Source: Dermatophagoides farinae | Taxonomy: Eukaryota > Arthropoda > Arachnida > Sarcoptiformes > Pyroglyphidae | Length of the DNA stretch: 64,000 nt | NCBI RefSeq assembly: GCF_024713945.1 | Contig: NC_134680.1 | Span: 4,054,001 to 4,118,000 of the forward strand | Reading direction: 5' to 3' | Part shown: one piece after another, positions 288 through 4,045 of the stretch | Layout: the number at the start of each line of letters is the position of its first letter | How positions within the stretch are numbered: the stretch's first letter is position 1 | Translations under genes and position numbers: made by a program | The notes under the pieces: model-generated | Databases searched by the model: none | The model's input: only the letters and a program-made list of their open reading frames with translations | What the model was told of the DNA's origin: nothing

Positions 288-1832
288 TCATCGTTTGTTA
301 ATCAAATTTGAAATTATAATTCTTATCGATAATGAAAATTCAATTATGAATATAGCCATACAAATGGTAATGCACCAGATATGTAATAGAAAGATTAACT
401 TAAATTCTTCATAGGTATATTGATGTAATGAAATCTGCTCCACAGCATCATCGATAAATTGATTATTTTGTTTTGAAATTTTTGCCATTTCTTTAGATGA
501 TTGACGATTACTTAATTCATCGCGTAACCATTTCTGCACTAAACCAGATGATTGTAGATAGAATATTCTGGGTAGAAAGAAAAATTTTTTTTTGTTTGTT
601 TTTGAGGTTTCAAAATTAAAAAAATTCCATTTTTACACACATACAATATATCGAAAGATTGGAAATGTTCAAAAGATTTTCGTACTGGTATCGATACAAG
701 AAATGGATAGAATGATGATTCGAATTGCAATGGTGGTAAATATAATAAATTTTTCCCATAATGGCATTGATAATATTGTAATGAATAACGTGTAGTGATT
801 AATGAGAATTTTTTACCATTCAAATTCTGTTCAATAATCATTTGTATGCCTTCTTCAGTATCGGATATTTGTTGAGTTTTTTCCCAAATCATTTGAAAAT
901 CTTTTCGTTTAGACATCTGTGATTGAAATAGAATTTTCTTGATTAAAATCAATTTAGTTTATGATCAATATTATAAATGTACAGAAAAAGTTTTTATAGC
1001 ACTTGTATTGGCCTGAATCAATGGTATAATATTCTGCGAATGACATTCATCGGCTAAATGTTGAATCGTATGAATATAATGATTTGCTATGGCCAAATCT
1101 GATGATAGAAAAACGCCATACATTGTCGATAATATTAATACCGATAAAATCCAAAATGACATCATAATTTTAAATGATAAATGCGTTGATCTTAATGGAT
1201 GATATGGTTGACGAAAAAATAGACCTAAACTGATCCATATAATATTATTATTATGATAATCATTAAAATATCGTTGATATTTCACAATTAAATTGCTACG
1301 AATTTGTTTCATCATATAAAACAGAAAAAAGATGGCCAATATCATCATCCATACTTGATTGGTGAATGGTTTCAATAATGAATAATAATTAATCGATGAT
1401 TGTTTAGCAGTGCTTGTCATGAATGTAACATAATCTATTAGATGTGTATAAAGATGATTGGTGACCAAATTTCGTTCATAGTTCATCATAACACCACCGA
1501 TACCAAGATCAATTTGTTCAGTTTCCAGCAATCCGATCATACCATTAAATGAACCATTCGACAATCGATATCCGTAGATATTATTACAATCAATGAATTT
1601 GATTGTAAAATTAAAATATTCGGCAATCGTTCTGATTACTGATGTATCGATACCAAACAATCGATCATTATTCAATGATTGTATCATGATAGATGTATAT
1701 GGTAGATCCTGATTATTATTAATTTATTTTAAAAATAGAATAGAATAAATTGTTATATGAATTCTAATAGATAGATAAACATACATTATTATATCCAACA
1801 ATTAAAGTTTTTGCTTCCAAATTTAATCTCAT
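288..1832 (-). CDS. Ionotropic receptor (iGluR superfamily), intact copy
   Basis: Predicted ligand-gated cation channel of the variant ionotropic glutamate receptor family, 441 residues. Exons on minus: 1832-1785, 1708-983, 916-645 and 567-288. All introns (76, 66, 77 bp) are GT-AG and the phases agree. Residues 8-110 resemble the S1 ligand-binding half, with LIVGYNNDLPY at the start and a YER motif whose Arg (about residue 95) sits where iGluRs bind the ligand carboxylate. M1 is at about 135-150, the pore segment at about 170-189 with RQPYHPLR, M3 at about 195-219, the S2 half is spread over exons 3 and 4, and M4 is at about 405-428 followed by a short tail. The M3 SYTANLAAF signature of classical iGluRs is absent, which is normal for divergent receptors. 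No amino-terminal domain or signal peptide is seen. The frame is open a little further upstream of the chosen ATG, so a 5' exon is possible. The ligand cannot be told from sequence. Confidence 0.8.
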
Positions 1833-2340: not shown

Positions 2341-2487
2341 TTTTGAATTAATTATTTGGAATATATAACTGAGAAAATTAAAATTTAAAAAATTTTTTCG
2401 ATATTTTAAAATTTCTACAATACACATTAGTATGGAGATTGTGTTAAATGTAAGATACATTTGAAATAACATTTGAAGATTTGTTGA
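2341..2487 (-). pseudogene. M4 helix sequence stranded behind an in-frame stop
   Basis: Directly after the TAA at 2490-2488 the same reading frame stays open for 49 codons, to a TAA at 2340-2338. It encodes a hydrophobic segment containing FNTISILMCIVEIL followed by basic residues. This matches the position and style of M4 in the neighbouring receptor (ITICMAIFIIEF). No AG dinucleotide lies between the stop and this segment, so a normal splice acceptor cannot remove the stop and keep the helix. It is either the lost end of a receptor turning into a pseudogene, or it is reached by stop-codon readthrough. A sequencing or assembly error at one base is the third possibility. Confidence 0.75.
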
Positions 2488-4045
2488 TTATGTACGAATA
2501 ATAGCATAGACTGAATCATCTTTATGATCATGGTAATCATAGTGACGGGGAACATTATATTGTTGTTTTTTGTTAGTGTTTATCATCAATGATCTAAACT
2601 TGTTTGCTTTCATTTTTTCCCGTTCAAACCAATGTTTTATCAATCCAGATGATTTATATAATGAAAGTCTAATGATGAGAGACAAAAAAACAAAAAAGAA
2701 ATTTCAAAATTAAAAATCAAATATATATTATTATATAATAATAACAATAACAATATAATTACAATTTATTGAATGATTGTAAATATTTGAAATCATTTCG
2801 AAATGGAAAAGAAATCCATGTCATTGAAATGGATGAACCGGAATGATTCGGTGGTATGTAATACAATTGTTTTTCATCGCCACCATTTTGATAATATTGT
2901 AATGTTTTCCTATAGGAAATGACAGCATATTGTTTGGCTTTCGGGCTATAATTCATTTGTCTTATAAGCAGATTTAGTGCAAGTTCATCATCATCACTAT
3001 TTTCCGTATAATCATATAATCTTCGATATGATTCCTGGTGATTAATCGATTATTATTATTATTATTAATATTCTGGTATATTTTATTCATTAATAATGGC
3101 ATTTATTTACCAATAAAATTTTTCCATTAGCACTATTTAGTTGTGTGAGTATAATAATTTTATTTTGTCCACATTCTTCGGCCAATTTATCCACCGTATC
3201 GATTACCATTTTTGTGGGTATGGTCAATGTTGAAAATAGAAATGTTCCATATAAAATATGTAATACAATAATGGCCATACACCATATGATTAGACAGAAT
3301 TTTTCCAATTTTTTCATCCATCGTAATTGCTGATATGGTTGTTTCAATAGAAGCCTGATGGCAATGTAAAAAATATTTGCCCGATGATGATGATGATTAA
3401 GAGATTTTTTACCCGTGTTTTTCATTAATAATGAATTATTGAAATAAATTTTAAACTCTTGAAATATCAGAAATAGTGATAATGAAAGCCATAGGCAAAG
3501 CCAAATTTCTTTGGAAAATGGTCTAATTAATAAATCAAAATTTATTTGATTTTCCGGAAAAATCGTTGCAAATGTAAGTCGATCAACTGTATATGGATAA
3601 AGAAATTTGAAATGATTGTAACGTTCATAGGTCATCATTATACCACCGATGCCGAAATCAATTTCCTATGATTATGATTAATTAATTTTATAATTAATAA
3701 AATTACAATTTTTTTTCTAGTGAATAAATTTACATTATCAATTAATTTACGTAACAATCCTGTCCATGTTCCATTGGACAGTTTGGCGCCATATTCTCCA
3801 TGACAATCGACCAATTTGATCGTAAAATTGAAATAAACACTCATCATTTTAATAATTGTTAATTCGATTCCGCCGAATCGATCCATAATGGTATATGGTG
3901 GATCCTACAAAATAAACAAACCAAATAATCGATTGTAGAAAGATTAAAAATAGATAGAAAAAAAATCATATTAAATCAAATGTAAACTTACATTATTTAA
4001 ACCGATTCTTAATGTTTGATTTTGAAGATTCAATAATGTTGCCAT
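2488..4045 (-). CDS. Ionotropic receptor (iGluR superfamily), copy with early stop before M4
   Basis: Tandem paralogue of the receptor at 288-1832. Exons on minus: 4045-3992, 3904-3734, 3665-3111, 3034-2763 and 2668-2488; introns are 87, 68, 76 and 94 bp, all GT-AG with matching phases. Translation to the first stop gives 410 residues. S1 starts with TLRIGLNNDPPYTIM, the ligand-site-like Arg is in MMTYER (about residue 90), M1 is at about 128-144, the pore at about 173-190 with KQPYQQLR, and M3 at about 197-220. S2 ends with LQSFNK and SSGLIKHWFE. A TAA then ends the protein just before M4, which is still encoded in frame further on. The start is fixed by a TGA codon directly before the ATG, so the protein opens at S1 with no signal peptide. 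The intron at 3733-3666 is absent from the sister gene. Because M4 is needed for a functional channel, this is either a young pseudogene or a readthrough gene. Confidence 0.72.

Follow-up and report, generated by a model that had tools for sequence, protein, structure and literature searches.

The ionotropic-receptor (IR) gene g01, which lies on the minus strand of the window (the whole stretch of 64,000 nucleotides of Dermatophagoides farinae DNA analyzed here), carries a single premature in-frame TAA, beyond which the same frame encodes a preserved M4 helix. We propose that g01 is probably a very young or still segregating null in a chemoreceptor family with rapid turnover. The gene has a clean five-exon model with one lesion only, and other members of the family also carry single lesions, from which we infer a loss of function, its recency, and the likely fate of the mRNA and the protein.

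The gene extends from 4045 to 2338 of the window and comprises five exons separated by four introns of 87, 68, 76, and 94 nt, all with GT-AG borders, and 410 codons are open before the TAA. Exon 1 (3992-4045) contributes 18 codons that form the beginning of S1 and ends in a GTAAGT donor. The open reading frame begins MATLLNLQNQTLRIG at the ATG at 4045, and an in-frame TGA lies directly 5' of this ATG, so exon 1 encodes no signal peptide. The S1 half of the ligand-binding domain is in exon 2 (3734-3904; TAG acceptor, GTAAAT donor), which scores 86.6 bits with the S1 HMM, the seed set of which includes g01 itself. The end of S1, M1, the pore loop, M3, and the start of S2 lie in the open frame of exon 3 (3111-3665), which keeps all four of the columns that are invariant across 19 aligned pore exons. 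Exon 4 (2763-3034), flanked on both sides by GT-AG introns, encodes S2 (85.7 bits with the S2 HMM, again with g01 in the seed set), and the gene model and the last-exon alignment together place the end of S2 and the linker to M4 in the part of exon 5 before the stop (2491-2668). The premature TAA (2488-2490) is found 178 nt into this last exon in the context ACA TAA TCA, and the post-stop frame continues for 49 sense codons (2341-2487) to a second TAA at 2340-2338. The five-exon model thus bears out the first-pass annotation, which had described a receptor that is open through S1, M1, the pore, M3, and S2 and then meets TAA at 2490-2488. The neighboring receptor g07 (288-1832, minus strand, a span judged by eye from the open frames) has its M4 inside the last exon and no lesion was seen in it. 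By eye, the starts of g01 (4045) and g07 (about 1832) enter S1 directly with MRLNL- or MATLLNLQ-like openings, and starts of this type, with no signal peptide in that exon, would call for either a further exon upstream or an uncommon mode of membrane insertion.

The g01 product is assigned by its sequence to the iGluR family as a protein that lacks the amino-terminal domain, and the gene is read as a divergent ionotropic-receptor gene. Lig_chan-Glu_bd (PF10613) is found in the product with an E value of 2e-10 and 41.2 bits against a Pfam cut-off of 30, Lig_chan (PF00060) scores 18.3 bits, below its cut-off of 30.8, and GluK2 chains align with residues 17-239 (E 1.3e-12). Searched on its own, the g01 pore exon has no Pfam match at E 0.001, whereas the neighbor g07 passes the cut-off; the g01 exon does align with the members of the receptor family, including g07. 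The M4 helix is outside the encoded protein, as its codons are found only 3' of the stop.

Ordinary splicing around the stop is ruled out, as had been claimed from the letters alone. The first AG is encountered 74 nt downstream of the first TAA base (2416-2415), within the last two M4 codons, and with no AG until the end of M4 the stop cannot be removed by ordinary splicing while M4 is kept. The M4-like helix itself (2413-2478) has 22 residues and ends in a conserved Glu. For comparison we defined an M4 block of 31 residues, namely six before M4, the 22 of M4, and three after, in 23 loci (21 intact loci together with g01 and g21; g13, g16, g17, g27, g28, and g29 were left out, mostly because of the census gaps given below). 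The pre-M4/M4 block is open in 21 of the 23 aligned loci and interrupted by a stop in g01 and g21. The g01 block aligns with those of its 22 paralogues without a gap, with 21 of them in the last-exon alignment and with g21 when anchored on the conserved Glu. The last 25 columns of the g01 block have a leave-one-out score of 32.2, which ranks 16 of 23 (range 24.6-46.5), and none of the 31,748 overlapping open 25-codon stretches on both strands of window positions 5001-64000, coding or not, reaches that value, the maximum being 25.1. A chance hydrophobic stretch in AT-rich DNA is thereby ruled out, and on sequence grounds the block is judged to be homologous. It follows that codons 4-28 of the 49 beyond the stop are M4 of the family type, as the first-pass annotation had supposed.

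An HMM of the last exon built from 21 paralogues detects the post-stop frame by itself (21.8 bits, E 1.7e-5), and its match stops at residue 34 of 49, so that the last 15 or so post-stop codons are without support. A pairwise search with the g07 last exon gave five matches and g01 was not among them, hence the homology of M4 is visible only with a family profile. g01 has an intact helix but an atypical linker around the stop. The mean hydropathy of the M4 block is 1.71, the second lowest of the 23, and the six columns before M4, with the stop counted as -2, score -6.5, the lowest of the 23; the next-lowest linkers are those of the array neighbors g08 (-1.8) and g04 (-0.7). Column -5 holds Thr in g01, the only polar residue at a position that all 22 other loci fill with a hydrophobic or aromatic one, and column -3 is Ser in g01 and g08 only. 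The suggestion that everything on both sides of the stop is under coding constraint therefore holds for the M4 block, which is preserved, but is too strong for the pre-M4 linker and the last 15 or so codons.

Across the genome, a search for the pore exon in 62,435,336 bases in 22 contigs yielded 29 matches, named g01 to g29, on contigs C1, C4, and C8, many of them in tandem, and none of the 29 contains a stop. A census of the 29 loci with HMMs for S1, the pore, S2, and the last exon revealed clear lesions in four, g01, g02, g11, and g21, with one lesion each, that of g01 being the TAA before M4. This is a lower bound because the census has gaps: the S2 and last exon of g17 were not found in its stretch, nor was the M4 of g16, the last exon of g13 is outside its own stretch and appears in the next one, g27-g29 are weak matches, and S2 is matched only in part in g06, g09, and g13. 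The four lesions occupy four different sites and so represent separate events; on the pore-exon tree the lesion label needs four changes, of which the well-supported branches alone force only two. Nonsense lesions outnumber frameshifts by 3 to 1, an excess that we judge too small to mean anything.

The three other lesions are as follows. In g21 (C8:2129439) a TAA is located inside M4; the tandem neighbor g20, with 88% identity across the pore query, remains open at this site. In g02 (C1:3463166) a TAA is located in S1, and the pore, S2, and M4 matches are free of lesions; a candidate frameshift between its pore and S2 was rejected by eye, as an ordinary GT-AG intron of 50-odd bases lies there, so that g02 shows the TAA alone in the matched stretches. 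In g11, downstream of the pore exon (C1, 3511196-3511663), S2 enters another frame and the last exon with M4 is open, which by our reading of the sequence would reflect a small frameshifting deletion. Weakly matching relic S2 and last exons with stops and frame changes were also seen, on C8 at about 2127320-2127690 between g20 and g21 and on C4 at about 2734110-2734290 between g06 and g13. Such sets of relic exons between intact copies have the look of older pseudogenes of the family. The lesions and the relics amount to ordinary birth-and-death turnover in a family that loses genes often. In g17 the pore exon is followed by tandemly repeated units of about 98 bp (NREYNKSNLTRSVQ-like; C4, about 2738060-2738870), and a last-exon-like match of 31.7 bits is present at about C4:2740760, although the search of the g17 stretch recovered neither an S2 nor an M4 exon.

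The rate of protein change was compared in the tandem pair g20-g21, with dN/dS of 0.58 over 391 codons, and in the intact control pair g04-g08 (pore, S2, and last exon), with 0.35 over 368 codons. When the amino-acid changes in the g20-g21 pair were assigned by outgroups, 22 fell on g21 and 15 on g20, with 31 unresolved, which does not separate the two copies. This suggests some relaxation in the pair that cannot be placed on g21.

How recently g01 was lost was estimated with a neutral-decay model in which selection is assumed to have ended at the stop and in which the mutation model and the indel/substitution ratios (0.15-0.05) are also assumed. Under this model, 5% of genes would still be without a second stop or frameshift in 439 codons at 1.2-2.0% neutral divergence (indel ratio 0.15-0.05), and thus, if selection did end at the stop, the neutral divergence since the loss is probably below about 1.2-2.0% (95%). 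In the simulations M4 is open with a score as good as that of g01 in 67% of cases with no decay, 29% at 5% divergence, 12.5% at 10%, 5.5% at 15%, and 2.1% at 20%, so under the model the M4 score is a looser limit on age than the missing second lesion. The absence of a second lesion and the undecayed M4 together imply that the loss is very young, or is segregating, or is not a loss. A search of the same assembly with 420 bases of DNA found no second copy or other haplotype of the g01 locus, and single-protein scans of collections of genome contigs and viral contigs, which include no related mite genome, found no orthologue. The first-pass annotation was right in taking the DNA for that of a mite: a Blo-t-5-type gene on the contig of the window is identical over 111 residues (8-118 of the translated query) to solved Der f 21 chains, which points to D. 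farinae. A group 2 allergen-like gene matched chains of both Der p 2 and Der f 2 and did not decide between species. A heterozygosity of 0.52% is reported for a published D. farinae assembly that we take to be the source of the window (PMC11074847).

That same assembly bears on the possibility of an assembly or consensus error, in which the animals would carry a sense codon at this position. Its reported Merqury QV of 36.1 corresponds to about 2.5e-4 errors per base (PMC11074847), or about 0.3 errors expected per 439 codons; were all of them substitutions, about 7.6% would create a stop. The fit of the published assembly to the genome of the window is imperfect: it is described as 21 scaffolds on 10 pseudochromosomes, compared with 22 contigs here, and its largest sequence is 9,172,953 bp, compared with 9,170,000 bp for C1. 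Against an error, the published assembly is reported to have been polished with Illumina reads using NextPolish and Pilon (PMC11074847). The 29 stop-free pore-exon matches are a weak sign that errors in these exons are not rife. Typical long-read errors are indels, and a substitution to TAA flanked by off-consensus neighbors is atypical of these. We regard an error in the assembly as very unlikely.

The mechanism that we put forward for a young or segregating null is as follows. A nonsense lesion would have been gained very recently in the last exon of g01, or a nonsense allele would still be segregating in the sequenced culture, and the transcript would still be spliced normally. An mRNA with its stop 3' of the last exon junction often escapes decay of the exon-junction type, and since the g01 stop is downstream of its last exon junction, the g01 mRNA would often do so. 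The predicted product is a 410-residue subunit with S1, M1, the pore, M3, and S2 and without M4. Judged by the analogy of NMDA receptors, this subunit may assemble and be delivered to the membrane without conducting, so that g01 would be functionally null or weakly dominant-negative. M4 would look intact because there has been too little time for it to decay.

The analogy comes from M4-deleted NMDA receptor subunits, which, like the truncated g01 product, consist of S1, M1, M2, M3, and S2 without M4, although they are engineered, vertebrate, and of another subfamily (PMC8517087). They are reported to assemble and to reach the surface, but not to conduct unless M4 is supplied (PMC8517087), and as they are silent at the surface, the g01 product could likewise be silent or dominant-negative. 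These subunits also raise the possibility that g01 encodes a functional M4-less subunit, its truncation selected or tolerated, acting as a decoy or dominant-negative, or perhaps receiving M4 in trans, either from another subunit or through translation that restarts at an ATG soon after the stop. Isolated M4 peptides are reported to rescue GluN1/GluN2A when one of the two subunit types lacks M4, though not with GluN3A, nor when GluN1 and GluN2A both lack it (PMC8517087). The position of the g01 stop in the last exon would suit such a product, and of the three premature stops seen in the family, two lie within the 28 codons of the pre-M4/M4 block, out of about 439 (P about 0.011-0.012 for random nonsense, calculated post hoc). 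This clustering, which also speaks against a simple young null, may reflect tolerance of late truncations instead of chance, and we treat it as a lead and not as a result. An unused M4 should decay, however, and that of g01 is not decaying, and the first ATG after the stop appears by eye, and from general knowledge, to be in a poor start context. Hence, we consider a functional M4-less subunit highly improbable.

Nearly all of the evidence for a young null is equally expected of a gene that is kept working by readthrough, in other words a pseudo-pseudogene in which a near-cognate tRNA decodes the TAA in sensory neurons and gives enough full-length working receptor, as for Ir75a of Drosophila sechellia. 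M4 is kept in the same frame and no other lesion was found in g01, and g02 and g21 likewise have one TAA each with no further lesion in the matched stretches. There is also precedent in the IR genes and neurons of flies: premature stops are reported for D. sechellia Ir75a as well as for other IR genes in D. melanogaster (PMC5615767), and readthrough of premature stops in reporters is reported to be high in fly neurons (PMC7244557). On the other hand, the stop of g01 is TAA followed by T, while readthrough in flies and mosquitoes is described as usually occurring at TGA and as more often lost at TAA and TAG, and an enriched 8-mer is also named (PMC5100048). The 100 nt that begin at the stop fold no better than average (z -0.09, equalled or beaten by 88 of 200 shuffled sequences) and give no sign of a stimulatory RNA structure, and the residues at -5 and -3 beside the stop are off consensus. 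Two of the hallmarks of conserved readthrough in flies and mosquitoes, a leaky context, usually at TGA, or RNA structure, are absent from g01, and its sequence lends readthrough of this stop no positive support. We therefore hold readthrough of g01 to be unlikely. Of the two outcomes that the first-pass annotation had offered, it is the young loss that gains from the data, with one lesion, intact splice sites, a preserved M4, and single lesions in three of the 28 other loci, whereas readthrough finds no positive evidence here given the TAA-T context, the lack of RNA structure, and the atypical residues that flank the stop.

The closest known parallels to g01 include the Ir75a pseudo-pseudogene of D. 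sechellia (Prieto-Godino et al., 2016), as each is an IR gene with a single premature stop and an otherwise intact frame; the difference is that readthrough of Ir75a was shown by experiment and g01 is known from its sequence alone. The Ir75a stop is said to lie in the ligand-binding part, and if so, g02, whose TAA falls in S1, may resemble Ir75a more closely in position and is perhaps the best Ir75a-like candidate. A broader form of the hypothesis, that house dust mites tolerate the TAA codons of g01, g21, and g02 by neuronal readthrough and that pseudo-pseudogenes are recurrent in chemoreceptor families beyond insects, strikes us as quite unlikely. A literature search at the level of titles and beginnings of abstracts, with subscription journals and preprints mostly outside its reach, found no study of IR genes in D. 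farinae.

The IR, GR, and OR families of arthropods evolve by birth and death and include young chemoreceptor pseudogenes. What we propose for g01, a very young or segregating null, resembles these in that the copies stand in tandem arrays, with single lesions in genes that are otherwise intact and relic exons between them, and differs in that the lesion falls just before M4, so that nearly the whole receptor is still encoded. If g01 is only a young loss, it is another example of chemoreceptor turnover, in this case in a major allergen-producing mite. Were readthrough to be demonstrated, chelicerates would join flies in having pseudo-pseudogenes, and it would be unsafe to rely on pseudogenes called automatically in mite genomes. 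With three TAA-bearing copies (g01, g02, and g21) in one family, readthrough is testable within a single species.
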